The translations under genes were made by a program, and so were the position numbers. DNA of 64,000 nucleotides from Pseudomonas sp. ADAK13 (GTDB lineage: Bacteria; Pseudomonadota; Gammaproteobacteria; Pseudomonadales; Pseudomonadaceae), in NCBI RefSeq assembly GCF_012935715.1, contig NZ_CP052860.1, positions 7,068,001 through 7,132,000 of the forward strand, given 5' to 3'. Positions 37,554 to 49,041 of this stretch are shown here, piece by piece; position 1 is the stretch's first letter; the number at the start of each line of letters is the position of its first letter. The notes beneath the pieces were generated by a model. The model ran no database searches, was not told the origin of the DNA, and saw only the letters and a program-made list of their open reading frames with translations.

Positions 37554-39653
<2,100 letters not shown>

Positions 39654-39710: not shown

Positions 39711-40649
39711 TTAATGATCAAAGTGCGCAGCAGAAAGCATGGCAGCGGTAATCTTCTCCTGTTTTTGCCCCTGCCCGATCATCCAGCGTTGAAACCCGCG
39801 GCACTGTTGTTTATGCAGCGTATTGGGGTGCCAACTCAGGTAGTACGGCGCCGCCAGCGGCACGGCGAACCGCCAGGGAATCACCAGCCGACCGGCCCGC
39901 AGGTCCCCGGCGATCATTGAGAACTGCGCCAGCACGATGCCTTGCCCATCGATGGCCGCCTGGATCGCGGTAATCGATGACGAATAATTACGGCGGATCA
40001 CGATGGGCTGGCCGGTTTGCCCTTCCAGCTCGCTGAACCATTGGGTCCACGAAGGCGGCGAATCGAATTTGGGCCGCGAGTCGATGCCGATCAGCCGGTA
40101 ATCGAGCAAGTCCCGCGCGGACGCAACCCGTTCCAGCAACTGCGGTGAACAGGTGGGCACCACACAATCGCGGAACAGCGGCACGCTATGCCCGGCATGC
40201 TCGGGGTGCTCGCCATAACCGATGCGAAAGTCGGCACTTTCCTCCCCCGATGCATCATCGAGGGTGCTGTCCAGGTAGATGTCCAGATCAGTTTCGTCCT
40301 GCCCCCATTCGTCGATCAGCGGCGACAGCCATTTGGTCATCAGCGAAGGCAGGCAACTGACATACAGGTTGTTGGGATTTTTCGCCCGCTCAGCCTCGGC
40401 CACCGCCAGCCTGAGTTCTTCGAACGCCGCGGTGCAACGGGCATGCAGGCGTTCGCCGACGCTGTTCAAGCGCAGGCGCTGGCCGTCCTTGAGCGTCAGC
40501 TTCATGCCCAGAGCCTCTTCGAGCAGTTTCATTTGCTGGCTGACAGCGCCCACCGAGATCTCCAGGCGAATCGCCGCCTGGGAGATACCGGCGCAGTGGC
40601 CCACCACTTCAAACACTTGCAACGCGCGCAACGGCGGTAAACGGCTCAT
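39711..40649 (-). CDS. LysR-family regulator (GcvA-like) of the ammonia-lyase-like gene
   Basis: A 312-aa LysR regulator of the GcvA subgroup, with LPPLRALQVFEVVGH at the start and HTH ISQAAIRLEISVGAVSQQMKL. It is divergent from the ammonia-lyase-like gene, 137 bp from its start, and likely controls it. TTTAG-N8-CTAAA (40675-40692) between them is a candidate binding site. It may also read into fadH downstream. Confidence 0.88.
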   Translation of the reverse strand: MSRLPPLRALQVFEVVGHCAGISQAAIRLEISVGAVSQQMKLLEEALGMKLTLKDGQRLRLNSVGERLHARCTAAFEELRLAVAEAERAKNPNNLYVSCLPSLMTKWLSPLIDEWGQDETDLDIYLDSTLDDASGEESADFRIGYGEHPEHAGHSVPLFRDCVVPTCSPQLLERVASARDLLDYRLIGIDSRPKFDSPPSWTQWFSELEGQTGQPIVIRRNYSSSITAIQAAIDGQGIVLAQFSMIAGDLRAGRLVIPWRFAVPLAAPYYLSWHPNTLHKQQCRGFQRWMIGQGQKQEKITAAMLSAAHFDH

Positions 40650-40674
40650 GGGGGGAATCTCGCGACTTCAGTAG

Positions 40675-40692
40675 TTTAGATTTTCTACTAAA
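40675..40692. promoter_or_regulatory. Candidate LysR site before the ammonia-lyase-like gene
   Basis: TTTAG-N8-CTAAA, a T-rich/A-rich inverted repeat 26 bp from the LysR start and 95 bp from the lyase start. Confidence 0.4.
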
Positions 40693-40786
40693 AGTAACAG
40701 AAAACCCCATATTTTCTTCAGTCAGTGCAACCCGTAGAGTGAAACCACTTTCCAACCCATTGCGTTGCGCCCAGCTGGAGTCACTG

Positions 40787-42328
40787 ATGAAAACCCTGCC
40801 TGAACAAATCACCCATGTCGTGTTAGGCGACAGAGAACCCAGCATCGAAGAGTTCGTGGCGATCGCCCGCTATTCAGCCACTGTTTCGTTTGCCGACAGT
40901 TACAAGAATCGGGTTAAAAAGTCCCGTGGGTTGATCGAGCGATTCCTCGATGAAAACCGTTTGGTGTACGGCGTGACCACAGGCTTTGGCGACAACGTGC
41001 GGCACGTCATCTCGCCGGAAAACGCCAAGGAACTGCAGGTCAATATCGTGCGTTCCCACGCTGTTTCCGTCGGTGAGCCGCTGGTGCGTGAACAGGTGCG
41101 TGCGATCCAGTTGATGGTGTTGATCAGCCTGGGCAAAGGCTACTCCGGGGTGCGCCTGGAACTGCTGGAACTGATCGCCGGCCTGCTAAACCACGACGTG
41201 GTGCCCTTTGCGCCGGGCGAAGGCTCGGTAGGTTACCTCGCGGTAGAAGGCCACCTGGCCCTGGTGCTGCTCGGCGAAGGCCGGGCCAGCGTCAAGGGCG
41301 GTGCACTGGTGGATGGCGCAACCGCCCTGCAACAGGTCGGCCTGCAACCGACCGACCTGCAGTGCAAGGAAGGCCTGGCGATGTTGAACGGCACCACGTC
41401 GGTGACCGCCATCGCGACGCTGGCGCTGTACAACGCCATGCAGGCCGCCGACCTCGCGGACGTGGCGGCGGCCATGTCGCTGGAGGCGCTCAAGGGCACC
41501 ATCCGCGCGTTCGACCCGCGCTACCACTCGATCAAGGCCCACCCTGAACAGGCCGCAACCGCCGCCAACATCAAGGCCATCCTGCACGACAGCCAGCTCA
41601 TCGAAGAAAATATCGATTATCGCCTGCAGGACGTCTACAGCCTGCGTGCCATCCCCCAAGTGCACGGTGCTTCCCGGCAGTTCATCAATTACGCGCGGGA
41701 AACCATCGAGCGCGAAATCAATTCCTCGGGCGACAACCCGGTGATTTTCCCGCTGGACGACGGTGATGGTATCGCGATTTCCGGCGCCAACTTCGACGGC
41801 ACTTACATCGGTATTTCGGCCGACACTCTGTGTGTGGCGCTGACCAACCTGGCGAAGATTTCCGAGCGCCGCACCGACCGCATGATCAACTCGCACTTCA
41901 GCGAAATGCCGGCCTTCCTGGTGCGCAACCCGGGCCTGAACAGCGGCTACATGATTGTCCAGTACACCGCCGCCGGGCTGTACGCCGAGATGAAAACCCT
42001 GTCGATGCCGTCGTCGATCGACAGCGTCTCGACCTGCGGCAACCAGGAAGACCCGGTCAGCCTGGCCTACAACGCGGTGATCAAGGCCTACAAAGTCTCG
42101 CAAAAACTCCAGTCGGTGGTGGCCATCGAAGTGCTGGTCGCGTGCCAGGCCCTGGATTTCCACGACGTGAACAAGGCATCGACCGCCACCAAGGCTGTCT
42201 ATGACCTGGTGCGCAGTGAAGTGCCGGTGGCGGACAACGACCGCGCGTTTTACGCTGACATGGCCAGTGTGATTGACCAGGTGCGCAGCGGGAAAATCAA
42301 CGACCTGGTGGCCCATCACCTGAACTGA
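40787..42328 (+). CDS. Histidine-ammonia-lyase homologue without MIO triad; probable ergothionase-type lyase
   Basis: A 513-aa member of the HAL/PAL fold. Several conserved elements are present: YGVTTGFG (Tyr61), EGLAMLNGT (Asn201), QDVYSLRAIPQVHG (Gln281, Tyr284, Arg287), NSSGDNPVIF, and CGNQEDPVS (Glu421). HutH normally reads GSVG-Ala-Ser-Gly to build the MIO electrophile. This protein reads GSVG-Tyr-Leu-Ala (residues 150-152), with a short deletion after it, so MIO cannot form. Ergothionase, which eliminates trimethylamine from ergothioneine, is a known MIO-free relative. Neighbouring amino-acid ABC genes and a urocanate hydratase fit that pathway. ATG 40787 has GGAG 6-7 bases upstream; GTG 40739 is the alternative. 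Substrate is inference. Confidence 0.8.
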   Translation: MKTLPEQITHVVLGDREPSIEEFVAIARYSATVSFADSYKNRVKKSRGLIERFLDENRLVYGVTTGFGDNVRHVISPENAKELQVNIVRSHAVSVGEPLVREQVRAIQLMVLISLGKGYSGVRLELLELIAGLLNHDVVPFAPGEGSVGYLAVEGHLALVLLGEGRASVKGGALVDGATALQQVGLQPTDLQCKEGLAMLNGTTSVTAIATLALYNAMQAADLADVAAAMSLEALKGTIRAFDPRYHSIKAHPEQAATAANIKAILHDSQLIEENIDYRLQDVYSLRAIPQVHGASRQFINYARETIEREINSSGDNPVIFPLDDGDGIAISGANFDGTYIGISADTLCVALTNLAKISERRTDRMINSHFSEMPAFLVRNPGLNSGYMIVQYTAAGLYAEMKTLSMPSSIDSVSTCGNQEDPVSLAYNAVIKAYKVSQKLQSVVAIEVLVACQALDFHDVNKASTATKAVYDLVRSEVPVADNDRAFYADMASVIDQVRSGKINDLVAHHLN

Positions 42329-42419
42329 CAACCACGCCGTCAAACGGCCTGCCCTCCTTTTTGGACGGCGGGCCTTTGGCATTTTCGGCGCAGACAACGC
42401 GATACCGGGGACCTTGCCG

Positions 42420-42911
42420 ATGCTTCAACCCACAGACGTTCTACACCTGCTCGACACCTGCTCCATTACCTACGAATACGTGGAACACAGCGCCGTGCGC
42501 ACCTGCGAAGAAGCCGACAAACTGGACATCGGGATTAGCGGGCAGGCGGTCAAGAACATCTTCCTGTGCGATGCCAAAGGCTTGAATCCCACCCTGGTGG
42601 TGCTCAAGAGCGACCAGCGCCTGGACCTGCGCGCACTCTCGCAGACCCTTGGCCTCAAGGGCTTGAGATTCGCCTCGCCGCGCCGCCTGATGGAAACCCT
42701 GGGCGTGGAGCCGGGGGCGGTGTCATTGCTGGGGTTGTGCAATGACGTGCAGCGCGCCACCCAGGTTGTGATCGCCGAAGAGGTGTGGAACGGGGACAGG
42801 ATTCTCTGCCATCCGCTGGTGAATACCGCGACTCTGTCGATCGCAGTCCGCGATATGGCGCGACTGCTAGATCATCTGGGCTTCACGCCGATACTCACCG
42901 CCGACGCCTGA
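42420..42911 (+). CDS. YbaK/ProX-type aminoacyl-tRNA deacylase
   Basis: A 163-aa single-domain trans-editing protein of the YbaK/PrdX (ProXp) family, which hydrolyses mischarged aminoacyl-tRNA. Visible are ITYEYVEHSAVRTCEEA, the Lys in SGQAVKNIFLCD (needed for tRNA binding/catalysis), and GVEPGAVSLLGLCND. It starts 91 bp after the lyase gene, in the same direction. It may simply hitch-hike in the operon, or protect against mischarging by the imported amino-acid analogue; the latter is speculation. Confidence 0.85.
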   Translation: MLQPTDVLHLLDTCSITYEYVEHSAVRTCEEADKLDIGISGQAVKNIFLCDAKGLNPTLVVLKSDQRLDLRALSQTLGLKGLRFASPRRLMETLGVEPGAVSLLGLCNDVQRATQVVIAEEVWNGDRILCHPLVNTATLSIAVRDMARLLDHLGFTPILTADA

Positions 42912-43051
42912 CAGCGCACGGGCGGGTGCAAAACGCTACCTATCGACCCAAAACAGGGCGACAAAATAGCGCGGAGTTTCTACCTCTGTTTAATTTCTTT
43001 TAAAAATCAACAGGTTATTTATTTGTAAAAGCTGGCAAATATTTTGCAATG

Positions 43052-43067
43052 ACATGTATGTACATGT
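43052..43067. promoter_or_regulatory. HutC-type operator upstream of the binding-protein gene
   Basis: ACATGTATGTACATGT has 7-bp arms and a 2-bp spacer and contains TGTA-N2-TACA, the core recognised by the GntR-type histidine-utilisation repressor HutC. It lies ~100 bp before the substrate-binding protein gene. Confidence 0.6.
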
Positions 43068-43169
43068 GGAGTCATGTGCAGACTGGAGAGCGAATCGACC
43101 AGTCCCCAAACCTGTATGCGTTCGAGAAAAAGTCCTAAGCCCACATCAAAACATTGGTAGGAAATAGAA

Positions 43170-44030
43170 ATGACCGCTAAAAAATCGAATTGGTTAGGCT
43201 CTGTTGCTGTAGCGACCTTAGTGATGGCAAGTGCTTCCGGACTGCAGGCAAAGGACTGGACGTCCGTGAACATCGCGACCGAGGGCGCGTACGAGCCCTG
43301 GAACCTGACATTGCCAGGCGGGAAGATCAGTGGTTTCGAGCCTGAGCTGATGGACTACCTGTGCGCCAAGATGAAGCTGCAGTGCAAGATCACCGTGCAG
43401 AACTGGGATGGCATGATTGCCAGTCTCAACGCAGGGAAGTTTGATGTGTTGATGGATGCGATCGTTATCACTGACGACCGTAAGCAGGTCATGGATTTCT
43501 CGATTCCCTACGCGCAGACGCCGGCCAACTTTGTCGCGCAGGATGCGGCGTTGCTGCCGGGTAAAACCGGGGCGGCGAATGCGATTACGCTGAGTGCTGA
43601 TCCGAAGGCGATTCACGATGCGATTGAGCCGTTGCGTCAGGCGCTGAAGGGTAAAACCATCGGGATCGCTTCAGGCATCATTTACACCAAGTTCATTGAT
43701 GAGAACTTCAAGGACGTGGCGACGATTCGTGAGTACAACACGTCCGCTGATGCAATTCTTGATCTGCAATCGGGCCGTATTGACGCGATTTTTGATGACG
43801 TTACGTTCCTTGATTCGATCATGTCCAAGCCTGAGAACAAGGGGCTGGCGTATACCGGGCCGCAGATCAAAGGCCCTATCTGGGGTGATGGCGAGGGCCT
43901 GGGTTTTCGCAAGAGCGATCCGGAGTTGAAGGCCAAGTTCGATGCGGCGTTGAAAGAAGCGATTGCTGATGGGACTGTTAAGAAACTCAGCGAAAAATGG
44001 TTCAAGGTGGATCTGACGCCTAAGTCCTGA
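43170..44030 (+). CDS. Periplasmic amino-acid-binding protein (ABC, family 3)
   Basis: A 286-aa substrate-binding protein with a signal peptide ending near SGLQA. It shows the family-3 pattern ATEGAYEPWNLTLPGGKISGFEPELM, AIVITDDRKQVMDFSIPY and GRIDAIFDD (parts quoted). This subgroup binds basic or histidine-like amino acids and opines. It starts 258 bp after the YbaK gene, with its own HutC-type palindrome. It converges on the ABC ATPase gene, with a repeat element between. It is presumed to serve the permeases at 45685-47161. Confidence 0.9.
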   Translation: MTAKKSNWLGSVAVATLVMASASGLQAKDWTSVNIATEGAYEPWNLTLPGGKISGFEPELMDYLCAKMKLQCKITVQNWDGMIASLNAGKFDVLMDAIVITDDRKQVMDFSIPYAQTPANFVAQDAALLPGKTGAANAITLSADPKAIHDAIEPLRQALKGKTIGIASGIIYTKFIDENFKDVATIREYNTSADAILDLQSGRIDAIFDDVTFLDSIMSKPENKGLAYTGPQIKGPIWGDGEGLGFRKSDPELKAKFDAALKEAIADGTVKKLSEKWFKVDLTPKS

Positions 44031-44053
44031 GGCGCTCTTGGTTGGGGTGGGGG

Positions 44054-44851
44054 CATATCCGTTATTTGGGTGATGGCTGAGATTGGTTCCGCTCTTACAG
44101 CGGGTCACTTTTGAAAAGAGCCCAAAAGTAACCAAAAGGCTCTTGCCCCACCACTCGGCACCTCGCTAAGGCTCGGTGTGCCCTCACTCCGGCTTTGGAC
44201 CGTGGGCCGCCGCGATGGGCCATCCTTGGCCCAGCGCGGCTAACCCGGCGTCCTGCCGGGTTACCCACGCTCCAAAGCCTGCGTTCGGCCAGCGTGGTTT
44301 AACGGGGCGCCTAAGATCAAGATCAAAAGCAGATCAAGAACACAGCGGCCTACAGGCCGGCTTGAGTGGTAGAAGCAAATCAAAATCTAAAGCGGGCACG
44401 GTCCACTGTAGGAGCTGGCTTGCCTGCGATGGCATCTACTGGGTGTACCTGACGCACCGAGGTGTCTGCATCGCCGGCAAGCCAGCTCCTACAGAAAAGC
44501 AGCTCTGCTTTCGCTCTGGTTTTTGATCTGGCTTTTAACACTCAGGTCGGCTTTCAGGCCGCCGTGCTCTTGCTTTTGATTTTGATTTTGATCTGACTGC
44601 CCCAATAAGCCCGAGGCCGAACGCAGGTATTGCGGAGCGGGTAAACCGGCAGGACGCCGGTTTAGCCGCGACGGGGCAGGGACGCCCCGTCGCGGCGGCC
44701 CGCGGAGCAATGCCGGAGTGAGGGAACACCGAGCCTAGGCGAGGTGCCGACAGGCGGGGCAGAGCGTTTTGGTTACTTTGCCGCTTTTGCAAAGTGACTC
44801 GCTGTAAGAGCGAAACCATAAGCGGCCGTTACCGCAGCAACGGATATGTAC
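44054..44851. repeat. ~800-bp composite long inverted repeat, copy 2, with nested REPIN
   Basis: This has the same architecture as 6271-7114: terminal CATATCCGTT and AACGGATATG, two inverted arms, and a REPIN in the centre (44406-44431 / 44469-44494, one mismatch). The right arm is almost identical to the right arm of copy 1. The left arm has diverged, but its hairpins keep pairing through compensatory changes. It separates the binding-protein gene from the convergent ATPase gene. Confidence 0.85.
44406..44494. repeat. REPIN inside composite repeat copy 2
   Basis: CTGTAGGAGCTGGCTTGCC... is inverted against its complement with one mismatch and a 37-bp spacer, the same position and spacing as in copy 1. 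Confidence 0.85.
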
Positions 44852-44875
44852 TCAAACCCAACCAACACCCAACCA

Positions 44876-45667
44876 CTACTCCGCACTACGCTGCGTATGA
44901 CTCGATACAAACTGCCGAAACCGCTCCGTCGGCAACCCCTCAAACAACTCCGCCGGCGTGCCCTGGGCATCAATCAACCCATTGGCCATAAACACCACCC
45001 GATTCGACACATGCCGCGCAAACCCCATCTCATGGGTCACCACCAACATGGTCCGCCCTTCCTCGGCCAGCGACCGCATCACCCGCAACACCTCCCCTAC
45101 CAACTCCGGGTCCAGCGCCGACGTCGGCTCATCAAACAACATCACTTGCGGGTTCATCGCCAACGCCCGGGCAATCGCCACCCGCTGCTGCTGCCCACCC
45201 GACAAATGCGCTGGGTAATAATCACGGCGGTCATAAAGCCCCACCTTGTGCAGCAGTTGCTCAGCTTCCTCCACACACTCGGCCTTCGAACGCTTGAGCA
45301 CCCGCATCGGGCCCTCGATGACATTTTGCAAAACCGTCATATGCGACCACAGGTTAAAGCTCTGGAACACCATGCCCAACTTGCTGCGCATGGTCTCCAC
45401 CTGCCGCGTACTGCCAGGCAACAACCGACCATTGCGCTGACGCTTGAGCTCGATGGTTTCGCCGTCGAGCACGATACTGCCCTCGTCCGGGGTTTCCAGC
45501 AGGTTGATACAGCGCAGGAAGGTACTCTTGCCCGAACCGCTGGCGCCGAGGATGGAAATCACGTCACCTTTGTGAGCCTCCAGCGAGATCCCCTTGAGAA
45601 CCTGTGCCGAACCGAAAGCCTTGTGAATGTTGTTAACCGAAAGGGCGCTCTGAATGTGAGTACTCAT
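44876..45667 (-). CDS. Amino-acid ABC transporter ATPase (HisP/OccP type)
   Basis: A 263-aa polar-amino-acid ABC ATPase. Walker A is [19 protein letters not shown], the signature is [17 protein letters not shown], the Walker B is [16 protein letters not shown], and the His switch is [11 protein letters not shown]. It is the last gene of the minus-strand hutU-permease-permease-ATPase series. It powers import together with the two permeases and the binding protein at 43170. Confidence 0.93.
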
Positions 45668-45684
45668 GACAAGCTCCGCTGCAA

Positions 45685-46422
45685 TCAGGAATGAGAAATA
45701 GGTTCGGGGGTTTGCTTGACCGGTACGTCGTTCGGCCGCTCACGCAGGTGGGGCGACAGACGATGTTCAATCCAGGCCACCACACGCACCACCAGGAAAT
45801 TCAGGATCAGGTAGATCAGCGCCGCACAAATGAACACTTCCATGGTGCGGTAGGTACGCTGGATGATTTGTTGCGCCACGCCGGTGACGTCCCATACGGT
45901 GACCAGGCTGGCCAGTGCGGTGGACTTGACCAGCAAGATGGCCTCGGTGGAATAGGCCGGAAGCGCCTGGCGCAAGGTGACCGGGCCGATCACTCGCCAC
46001 AACAGGGTCCAACGCCCCATGCCCACTGCCTGCCCCGCTTCGATCTGCCCTTGAGGCACGCTCAGCAGGCCACCGCGAATGATTTCAGCGGTGTAGCCGG
46101 CGGTGCACATCGCCAAGGAGACCACGGCGCAGCCATAAGGCGACCTCAACACCACCCACAGGAAGCTGTCGCGAATCGCCGGGAACTGGCCCAGGCCGTA
46201 GTAGATCAGGAACATCTGGATCATCAGCGGCGTGCCGCGAAACAGCATGATGTAGAAACGCGCCGGGTAGCTGAGGAATGGCCAGCGGCTGACGCGCATG
46301 GACACCACGCCCAGCGACAGCAGCAACCCCAGGGTCAGGGACGAAAAAAACAAGGCCAGGGTGATGGGCAAGGCACCCAGCAACTTGAGCATGGTGTCGG
46401 CAAGAAAGGCGAAATCGATCAT
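45685..46422 (-). CDS. Amino-acid ABC transporter permease (2)
   Basis: A 245-aa HisM/OccM-type inner-membrane permease with about five helices and the EAA loop motif [23 protein letters not shown] 46422 has AAGGGA upstream; the frame extends to 46491 but overlaps the upstream gene. It forms a heterodimer with the permease encoded just before it. Confidence 0.9.
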
Positions 46423-46438
46423 GGCAAACGGTCCCTTC

Positions 46439-47161
46439 TCACGACTGTGCAGGATTGCGCCGCTGCGTACGCTGTACGCGCGCTTCGGCAATATTGAAAA
46501 GACGGCCAGAAAGCCCGGTCAGAATCAGGTAGCACACGCCGCCGACGATGTAGAACGTGAAGTATTGGCGCGTGGAACCCGCCGCCACCTGGCTGGCTCG
46601 CATCAGTTCCACCAGGCCAATCACCGAAATCAGCGCGGAGTCTTTGAGGCTCATTTGCCAGACGTTGCCCAGGCCCGGCAGCGCATACCGCCAGATCTGC
46701 GGGATCAGCACCCGGCGAATCCGCGTTGCGCGGTTCATGCCGATCGCCAGTGCCGCCTCAAGCTCACCCTTGGCCACCGCGATAAAGGCACCGCGATAGA
46801 CCTCAGCCTGATACGACGCCGAGATCAATCCGACGGCGATGGCCCCCACCATGAACGGTGGGACATCGACATAGCCTTCGCCGCCAAACCAGTGATTGAC
46901 GGCCGTCACCACACTGGCACCGCCGAAATAGAACAGGTAGATCACCAACAGCTCCGGGATCCCCCGGAACAGGATGGAATACGCATCACCCAGGTATCGC
47001 AAGGCACGCTTTTTGGAAAGTTTGGCCATGGCCACCAGGCTGCCGACCAGCGCACCGACCACCAGCGCCGCAAGGGTCAACAACACGGTCATGAGGGCGG
47101 CCTTGAGCAAGGCCATCCCCCAACCCGTGTCGCCAAAACTGAGCATCTGCATGAGACTCAT
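46439..47161 (-). CDS. Amino-acid ABC transporter permease (1)
   Basis: A 240-aa HisQ/OccQ-type permease. It has LFRGIPELLVIYLFYFG and the EAA motif EAALAIGMNRATRIRRVLIP. The ATG at 47161 has AGGAG 7 bases upstream. It follows the urocanate hydratase gene by 119 bp on the same strand, so a common transcript is likely. That physical link ties uptake to urocanate-type chemistry. Confidence 0.9.
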   Translation of the reverse strand: MSLMQMLSFGDTGWGMALLKAALMTVLLTLAALVVGALVGSLVAMAKLSKKRALRYLGDAYSILFRGIPELLVIYLFYFGGASVVTAVNHWFGGEGYVDVPPFMVGAIAVGLISASYQAEVYRGAFIAVAKGELEAALAIGMNRATRIRRVLIPQIWRYALPGLGNVWQMSLKDSALISVIGLVELMRASQVAAGSTRQYFTFYIVGGVCYLILTGLSGRLFNIAEARVQRTQRRNPAQS

Positions 47162-47252
47162 CAAGTCACTCCTACCGAAAACACATAAAGCACCGGAACC
47201 TTGAAATCCGTCTCAACCTGCCCGACGTCCATGAAGCAAAGGGTGCAACTGC

Positions 47253-47279
47253 CTGACTCTTTCGCGAGCAAGCTCGGCT
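47253..47279. repeat. Single REP-like sequence
   Basis: CGAGCAAGCTCGGCTCCTAC resembles half of the GTAGGAGC-type REP, between permease 1 and the hydratase gene. Confidence 0.55.
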
Positions 47280-47280
47280 C

Positions 47281-48948
47281 CTACAACATCGGCAGGTTCA
47301 ACCCCTGCTCCTTGGCGCAATCGATCGCGATCTGGTAACCGGCATCCGCATGACGCATCACGCCGGTCGCCGGGTCGTTGTGCAGCACGCGGGCGATACG
47401 CTCGGCGGCTTCGTCGGTACCGTCGCAGACAATCACCATGCCCGAGTGCTGGGAGAAGCCCATGCCCACGCCGCCGCCGTGGTGCAACGAAACCCAGGTC
47501 GCGCCGCTGGCGGTGTTGAGCAAGGCGTTGAGCAGTGGCCAGTCGGACACGGCGTCGGAACCGTCCTGCATCGATTCGGTTTCACGGTTGGGGCTGGCCA
47601 CCGAGCCGGAGTCCAGGTGGTCGCGGCCGATCACCACCGGTGCCGACAGCTCGCCGCTGCGCACCATTTCGTTGAACGCCAGGCCGAGCTTGGCGCGCTG
47701 GCCCAGGCCAACCCAGCAGATACGCGCCGGCAGGCCCTGGAAGCTGATGCGCTCGCGGGCCATGTCCAGCCAGTTGTGCAGGTGGGCGTCGTCCGGGATC
47801 AGCTCTTTGACTTTGGCGTCGGTCTTGTAGATGTCTTGCGGGTCGCCCGACAGCGCAGCCCAACGGAACGGGCCGATGCCACGGCAGAACAGCGGACGGA
47901 TGTAGGCCGGTACGAAACCCGGGAAGTCGAAGGCGTTTTCCACGCCCACTTCTTGCGCCATCTGACGGATGTTGTTGCCGTAGTCGAACGTCGGGATGCC
48001 TTGTTTCTGGAACTCAAGCATGGCCTTGACGTGCACCGCCATCGACTGCTTGGCGGCCTTGATCACTTCGGCCGGTTCGGTCTTGGCGCGGGCGCGGTAC
48101 TCGTCCCAGGTCCAGCCGGCGGGCAGGTAGCCGTTAAGCGGGTCGTGAGCGCTGGTCTGGTCGGTGACCATGTCCGGGCGCACGCCGCGCTTGACCAGTT
48201 CCGGCAGGATTTCCGCCGCGTTGCCCAGCAGGGCGATGGAGATCGCGCGGCCTTCCCTGGTGTATTTGGCGATGCGCGCCAGGGCGTCGTCGAGGTCGGT
48301 GGCTTGCTCGTCGACATAACGGCTGTTCAAGCGGAAGTCGATGCTGACCTGCTGGCATTCGATGTTCAGCGAGCAGGCACCGGCCAGGGTCGCGGCCAGT
48401 GGCTGGGCGCCGCCCATGCCGCCGAGGCCGGCAGTCAGGACCCAACGGCCCTTGAGGTCATCGTTGTAATGCTGGCGACCGGCTTCGACGAAGGTTTCGT
48501 AGGTGCCCTGCACGATGCCCTGGCTGCCGATGTAGATCCAGCTGCCGGCGGTCATCTGGCCGTACATGGCCAGGCCCTTGGCATCCAGTTCGTTGAAATG
48601 CTCCCAGCTCGCCCAGTGCGGTACCAGGTTGGAGTTGGCGATCAGCACGCGCGGCGCGTTGCTGTGGGTCTTGAACACGCCGACGGGTTTGCCGGACTGC
48701 ACCAGCAGGGTTTCGTCGTCATTGAGGTGAGTCAGGCTTTCGACGATCTGGTCGTAGCATTCCCAGTTGCGCGCGGCACGGCCAATGCCGCCGTACACCA
48801 CCAGTTCTTTCGGATTTTCGGCAACCTGCGGGTCAAGGTTGTTCATCAGCATGCGCAGCGGCGCTTCAGTCAGCCAGCTTTTGGCGGTCAGCGTGTTGCC
48901 GCGTGCGGCACGGATTTCAACGTCACGGTACTTCGTAGGCTTGGTCAC
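47281..48948 (-). CDS. hutU: Urocanate hydratase family enzyme
   Basis: A 555-aa NAD+-dependent hydratase closely resembling Pseudomonas HutU. It shows [17 protein letters not shown], the NAD-binding [18 protein letters not shown] and [13 protein letters not shown] with the essential Cys. The GTG at 48948 has AGGA 7 bases upstream; the frame is open to 49320 without support. HutU converts urocanate to imidazolonepropionate. In this setting it may instead act on thiourocanate, since known ergothioneine degraders use a HutU homologue for that step. No hutH, hutI or hutG is adjacent. A HutC-type palindrome lies 80 bp upstream. Confidence 0.9.
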
Positions 48949-49027
48949 AAAAAAATCCTCAACGATCAATGCGCGAACATGATGGGTGCGAAGAAGATGT
49001 CCATGGACTCTTACGCACACATCTTTA

Positions 49028-49041
49028 CTTGTACATACAAG
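49028..49041. promoter_or_regulatory. HutC-type operator upstream of hutU
   Basis: CTTGTACATACAAG is a near-perfect palindrome with the TGTA-N2-TACA core, 80 bp before the hydratase start. It shares the core with the site at 43052. Confidence 0.65.

Follow-up and report, generated by a model that had tools for sequence, protein, structure and literature searches.

A 64-kb window of the genome of Pseudomonas sp. ADAK13 (contig NZ_CP052860.1, positions 7,068,001 to 7,132,000; the genome is a single contig of 7.30 Mb) carries, at window positions 39711-49041, a locus built around a lyase of the histidine ammonia-lyase (HAL) family that cannot form the 4-methylideneimidazole-5-one (MIO) group. 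This locus probably serves to split a histidine betaine, most likely hercynine (N,N,N-trimethylhistidine), without MIO and so to feed the histidine utilization (Hut) pathway under the control of HutC. The missing MIO, a canonical urocanate hydratase (HutU), conserved HutC sites and the repeated linkage of the lyase family to Hut enzymes are read from the sequence, and from there we infer the elimination chemistry. Urocanate is very likely the product of the lyase; hercynine is, with less confidence, its probable substrate. Elimination of a betaine without MIO is already known from ergothionase, and what would be new here is its coupling to the ordinary Hut pathway. The locus consists of two converging arms. 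The first holds a divergent LysR-type regulator gene, the lyase gene, a YbaK-type gene and the gene for a substrate-binding protein of the PAAT type, and the second encodes an ATPase, two permeases and HutU.

The lyase gene (40787-42328, plus strand) encodes a protein of 513 amino acids that matches PF00221 at 552 bits. At the MIO site, HutH reads GSVG-ASGD-LAPLAH and the window lyase GSVG-Y-LAVEGH, so that the three MIO-forming residues and the next Asp are replaced by a single Tyr (Tyr150). Both Tyr150 and a nearby Glu154 are kept in 47 of 47 aligned rows of the family to which this lyase belongs, here called GYxE. Glu154 is found in none of the 30 MIO-bearing rows and in none of the 7 rows of a second MIO-free group, xxD, and its position is Leu, Met or Thr in HutH. 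The HAL positions Y53, H83, R283 and E414 (HAL numbering), which bind imidazole and carboxylate, are likewise kept in 47/47 GYxE rows. The Pseudomonas clade of the family also keeps N195, Q277, Y280 and F329, which are substrate-binding positions in HutH, and most Bacillus-group homologues have Leu at 280 and Ser or Asn at 195. HutH (PDB 1gkm, the P. putida enzyme) has Y53, H83, N195, Q277, Y280, R283, F329 and E414 in common with the Pseudomonas-clade lyases and differs from the window lyase in its ASG tripeptide, D145 and the residue at position 154. Identity between the window lyase and the MIO-bearing HutH of the same genome is about 38%.

The relationships of the lyase were examined in a quick tree of 93 rows with support from the Shimodaira-Hasegawa-like approximate likelihood ratio test (SH-aLRT), in which the MIO-site columns were kept. 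A contig scan supplied loci of which the best 80 were retained, and the counts of GYxE and MIO-only loci given below refer to these 80: 33 with a GYxE lyase, 46 with MIO lyases only and one with a MIO lyase and an ergothionase-type lyase. The tree omitted every second MIO row and the lyases of loci L061 and L062 from this set, and included 26 lyases picked from earlier loci. Group labels follow a motif pattern that marks L074 (SPESH) as GY; L064, also marked GY, was counted as GYxE by eye. The window lyase is placed with the GYxE rows (SH-aLRT 100), apart from the ergothionase of T. denticola (PDB 6s7j), which belongs to the xxD group of 7 rows (SH-aLRT 100). The approximately unbiased (AU) test did not reject a clade uniting both groups (p 0.224); two independent losses of MIO are therefore not claimed, and a single loss is possible. 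GYxE proteins occur in soil Pseudomonas, in Bacillota (Bacillus-type, Paenibacillus and gut lineages) and in some Actinomycetota.

The second line of evidence is the hydratase. The local hutU (47281-48948, minus strand, GTG start) scores 1018 bits with the HutU model TIGR01228 (cut-off 375), 693 bits as a thiourocanate hydratase (cut-off 930) and 710 bits as an S-methylthiourocanate hydratase (cut-off 880). It is one of two urocanases in the genome. The other lies in the hut locus, together with HutI, HutG and HutF (named by reading of translations) and the MIO-bearing HutH. The two copies differ by 4 mismatches over 1764 nt (99.77% identity), a span that takes in the HutC operator and some 100 bp of upstream sequence around it. 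A preliminary description of this DNA had noted a urocanate hydratase homologue and linked it to thiourocanate; the homologue is present, and it proves to be almost a duplicate of the hutU in the hut locus and not of the thiourocanate type. The window gene thus appears to be either a recent copy of the hut-locus hutU or its gene-conversion partner. Comparison between genomes bears on the likeness of such within-genome hutU pairs: identities are 99.77% in G000 and 98.59% in G261, against 95.2-96.7% between these two genomes (over unequal aligned lengths), and the pair in G129 is 94.8% alike, against at most 90% to the other genomes compared (aligned lengths again differ). Because the copies within a genome are closer to each other than to their counterparts in other genomes, their similarity fits gene conversion and an unchanged, shared function. 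Pieces of hutU at contig ends in G079 and G095 are consistent with two copies there as well. A further Pseudomonas genome (G271) has three hutU genes, at positions 4622413, 4632095 and 375419 of its contig C1, two of which are separated by about 10 kb and face in opposite directions.

The locus also carries predicted operators of the Hut regulator. HutC recognizes the consensus TGTA-N2-TACA (PMC12977541). The window contains exactly two matches (43055 and 49030), and both fall within the locus; 0.10 were expected, and none of 100 shuffled sequences contained two. The first predicted operator (CATGTATGTACATG, 43053-43066, plus strand) lies upstream of the gene for the substrate-binding protein. 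The second (CTTGTACATACAAG, 49028-49041, minus strand) lies upstream of hutU and is identical to the operator of the hut-locus hutU. Canonical HutU and operators of this type are what the locus shares with the Hut pathway and the HutC regulon; the difference lies in the entry step, which is catalysed by HutH in the Hut pathway and is assigned here to a MIO-free lyase with an adjoining LysR gene.

Conservation of this arrangement was assessed in 298 genomes of the genus, a sample taken from a larger group. A lyase at least 75% identical was found in 12 of the 298, the source genome included, and the next best matches listed are 36-39% identical. In the twelve orthologous loci, the LysR gene is always present, and the binding protein of the importer is present in 11, with the twelfth locus interrupted by a contig end. 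A local hutU accompanies five of the twelve, two of these being cut. In all eight loci of clade A, the nearer of two clades, the interval from the lyase to the next transporter or hutU gene contains the core TGTAYATACA on either strand. It was found in none of the four loci of the more distant clade B, where L050, L051 and L052 have sites with one mismatch only.

Linkage of the GYxE family to Hut enzymes recurs in other lineages. Homologues from Brevibacillus (L065) and Paenibacillus (L066), with 62% and 61% identity, are encoded in an operon of the order MFS-lyase-AraC-HutG-HutU-HutI, and their HutU proteins are canonical (1004 and 1000 bits). In L086 the order is lyase-lyase-BCCT-HutU-x-lyase, and the metagenome-assembled genome that contains it showed no further PF00221 member. 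A hutU gene was found in 13 of the 33 GYxE loci, 11 of which have no MIO-bearing HutH in the stretch. Ten GYxE genomes were searched for urocanase, eight of them chosen because hutU had already been seen near the lyase; a single copy lies within about 10 kb or less of the GYxE lyase in six of the ten, and two copies are present in two. The neighbours also include genes that point to methylated amines. Transporters of the BCCT family were found in 7/33 GYxE loci and N-methyl-amino-acid oxidases of the MSOX type in 9/33, against 0/46 MIO-only loci for either, a contrast that is inflated since both 10-kb flanks were available for 21 of the 33 GYxE loci and for 18 of the 46 MIO-only loci. Restricted to loci with both flanks, the counts are 3/21 (BCCT) and 8/21 (MSOX) against 0/18. 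The loci behind these counts are related and not independent, and the counts carry no phylogenetic correction. Pfam supports the BCCT assignment in three of the seven cases (L086, L088 and L090).

From these observations a pathway can be proposed. The importer would take up an N-alpha-methylated histidine, most likely hercynine, and the GYxE lyase would eliminate the amine without MIO to yield urocanate and trimethylamine. A lyase without MIO requires a good leaving group. MIO could be dispensable here because trimethylamine, unlike ammonia, is a ready leaving group. With urocanate as the product, the corresponding betaine would be hercynine. The local HutU would then hydrate urocanate, and the hut-locus enzymes HutI, HutF and HutG would complete the breakdown. 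Urocanate would also relieve repression by HutC and so induce the importer and hutU. Precedent for the first step is provided by ergothionase, which works without MIO and frees trimethylamine (PMC13405746).

Several observations weigh against this pathway. Among the best 80 loci, hutU is no commoner beside GYxE lyases (13/33) than in MIO-only loci (24/46), and in two of the ten GYxE genomes searched the single urocanase lies elsewhere. BCCT genes accompany GYxE lyases only in Bacillota, for the most part in gut lineages, and a further BCCT gene (L124) adjoins an ergothionase-type lyase. Genes handling trimethylamine were not recognized in the locus, and the genome was not searched for them. 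Clade B, which makes up four of the twelve orthologous Pseudomonas loci, has neither hutU nor a perfect HutC site; its operon encodes instead a VanA-type Rieske oxygenase and a reductase, one of each confirmed by Pfam. The importer, too, is of the PAAT type and not of the betaine type, and among solved structures its binding protein (43170-44030, plus strand) comes closest to those that bind octopine (212 bits) and nopaline (197 bits). Finally, N195 and Y280 are HAL-like in the Pseudomonas clade, where ergothionase has Ser and Leu; given this difference, the amine pocket of these lyases may suit something smaller than trimethylamine.

The last of these points lead to the strongest alternative, in which the substrate is another N-substituted histidine (histopine or an opine-like conjugate, or mono- or dimethylhistidine) from which a secondary or tertiary amine is eliminated, again giving urocanate. 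The opine-binding relatives of the importer and the HAL-like pocket residues would be accommodated by such a substrate, as would the MSOX-type oxidases of the Bacillus group and the clade B oxygenase, which looks like a demethylase (nearest solved relatives 7qwt and dicamba O-demethylase). Yet at the positions occupied by AN in OccJ and AS in NocT, the binding protein retains two acidic residues (DD or ED), which speaks against a carboxyalkyl-substituted amine. Secondary amines also leave poorly without MIO, and BCCT transporters stand near some gut homologues. On balance, an N-substituted histidine other than the betaine is unlikely, though it deserves more weight than the alternatives that follow.

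The preliminary description had preferred ergothioneine, with a related histidine betaine as its other option. For ergothioneine, the lyase would act as an ergothionase and supply thiourocanate for hydration by the HutU-like protein, and desulfuration would be encoded elsewhere in the genome. The resemblance to ergothionase and the ert operon is real. Window lyase and ergothionase are both HAL-family proteins without MIO that have the equivalents of Tyr53, His83 and Glu414, the ert operon likewise pairs a betaine lyase with a hydratase of the urocanase family, locus L079 has an ergothionase-type lyase adjoining two GYxE lyases, and the AU result leaves room for a joint clade. However, the two enzymes belong to different groups in the tree, and the comparison with 6s7j thus went against the suggestion that the window lyase is an ergothionase. 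Their MIO-site deletions differ as well, with three residues and D145 lost in the window lyase and one residue lost and D145 kept in ergothionase. The active-site Lys of ergothionase (residue 383 of the 6s7j chain), a catalytic residue, is Tyr in the window lyase and in all 47 GYxE rows; it is Lys in 4 of the 7 xxD rows. The ert pathway further includes a desulfurase and a thiourocanate hydratase, and the local HutU stays below the cut-off for the latter. Across the 12 Pseudomonas genomes with the lyase, thiohydantoin desulfurase gave no match at all and thiourocanate hydratase none over its cut-off, with both searches positive in the controls G666 and G667; the hydratase scores of G079 and G095 are partial, as contig ends break their hutU copies. 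A class-wide search for thiourocanate hydratase (0/369) has little weight, since its controls also gave no match. In the desulfurase search, the Bacillota genomes G669 and G671 reached 282 bits, short of the cut-off of 440.

The two genomes with two urocanases, those of L065 and L066, bear directly on this question. Each has a separate ert-type operon (L161 and L160, respectively) encoding an xxD-motif lyase (assigned by motif, outside the tree), a thiohydantoin desulfurase, a thiourocanate hydratase, an ErtD-type protein and ErtE. The thiourocanate hydratases score 1031 (L161) and 1023 bits (L160) against the cut-off of 930, the desulfurase of L161 scores 614 bits, and the ErtD-type protein of L161 is below cut-offs. 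Because these genomes hold both types of operon, ergothioneine and the GYxE substrate appear to be served by separate operons within one genome. Ergothioneine was rejected as the substrate on the tree, the active-site columns, the HutU subfamily and the genome searches with positive controls, and its uptake, elimination and hydration at this locus are very improbable. The option of a related histidine betaine is, by the HutU type, the HutC sites and the family's linkage to Hut enzymes, the one that gained support. Just as improbable is a MIO-free dehydratase that would turn imidazolelactate or a similar alpha-hydroxy acid into urocanate and water, a reaction with an analogue in the distantly related fumarase superfamily: it would explain both the MIO-free elimination and the HutU link, and the MFS transporters of the Bacillus-group homologues resemble an aromatic-acid family (best model 194 bits, below its cut-off), but the BCCT transporters, the MSOX-type oxidases and the acidic residue of the importer at the cationic-amine position point to a methylated amine.

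The remaining genes of the locus complete the preferred hercynine pathway or lie beside it. The importer consists of the binding protein, an ATPase (44876-45667, minus strand; best model HisP at 353 bits, below the cut-off of 466) and two permeases identified by profile models (45685-46422 and 46439-47164, both minus strand). The regulator gene (39711-40649, minus strand) is divergent from the lyase gene, and its best NCBIfam model is GcvA at 192 bits, below the cut-off of 288. The YbaK/tRNA_edit-domain protein (42414-42911, plus strand; PF04073 at 82 bits) is found in only 2 of the 12 orthologous loci and is probably a passenger. Much of the inventory in the preliminary description was thus borne out, namely the MIO-less ammonia-lyase homologue, the complete amino-acid ABC importer, the GcvA-like LysR and the HutC-type palindrome in each converging arm; the YbaK gene is present too, but as a conserved part of the unit it is ruled out. 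Between the binding-protein and ATPase genes, positions 44406-44864 hold repeat-like sequence that also matches a related locus (L043) in inverted orientation. A flavoprotein gene next to the locus (37554-39644), presumably fadH, was considered as a trimethylamine dehydrogenase and not accepted; of its 83 matching models, none of the 25 shown is over its cut-off.

Other MIO-free lyases were observed in related settings. The second lyase encoded in Pseudomonas hut operons, of the HutH1 type, has the same three-residue deletion with Tyr, and so does a Klebsiella plasmid lyase that likewise lies inside a hut operon. They read LTHMAH or LIATAH, without the E-bearing motif of GYxE, and occupy separate branches of the tree. 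In the genome's own hut locus (L009, 6076-7617), the second HutH is of this HutH1 type (GSVGYLTHMAH) and, by reading of translations, adjoins a ProU-like permease and ATPase; all 19 of the hut-type loci examined in Pseudomonas show the same motif. The Klebsiella plasmid operon (L055, 1455-11328) contains hutU, hutC, hutD, a formimidoylglutamate deiminase gene and an OpuAC-type importer beside the lyase (GSVGYLIATAH). There are 226 Klebsiella plasmid records that match the window lyase in some way, and the motif was read in one of them, L055. A fifth PF00221 lyase of the source genome (L011, 6530-7924, near 546 kb; 464 amino acids) resembles ergothionase in its xxD motif (GSLGESDLAPLAH) but has Arg in place of His83, and by reading of translations adjoins an ornithine-cyclodeaminase-like gene and two substrate-binding proteins. 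Another Pseudomonas region with a GYxE operon has a second MIO-free lyase (L049, 17522-19036; GSVGYISHMAH) with a VanB-like reductase next to it, again by reading. On a Rhizobium beringeri plasmid (L054, 6962-11424), a related MIO-free lyase stands in a row with a CoA transferase, a 3-hydroxyacyl-CoA dehydrogenase and an enoyl-CoA hydratase, and possibly acts on a betaine whose aryl-acrylate product goes to beta-oxidation. Two or three MIO-free lyases are clustered in L079 (802-5511), L083, L086, L089 and L090, from anaerobic or gut-type Bacillota, with amine-pocket residues that differ in most; this suggests a set of betaines handled jointly.

Taken to the level of the family, GYxE may represent MIO-free hercynine lyases not described before, which would convert histidine betaine to trimethylamine and urocanate and so channel it into the Hut pathway, with the Pseudomonas HutH1 and the Klebsiella plasmid enzyme as further MIO-free betaine lyases. 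This broader proposal is about evenly poised between being right and wrong. Among the titles and beginnings of abstracts listed in open-access literature searches, none described an enzyme that turns hercynine into urocanate and trimethylamine. If the proposal is true, it would account for the considerable number of proteins that are recognized by histidine ammonia-lyase models yet are unable to form MIO, and would provide a genetic basis for the breakdown of hercynine, the sulfur-free precursor of ergothioneine. The Hut pathway would then be a general sink for histidine betaines, and these lyases another possible bacterial source of trimethylamine, one that would have been overlooked in the gut.

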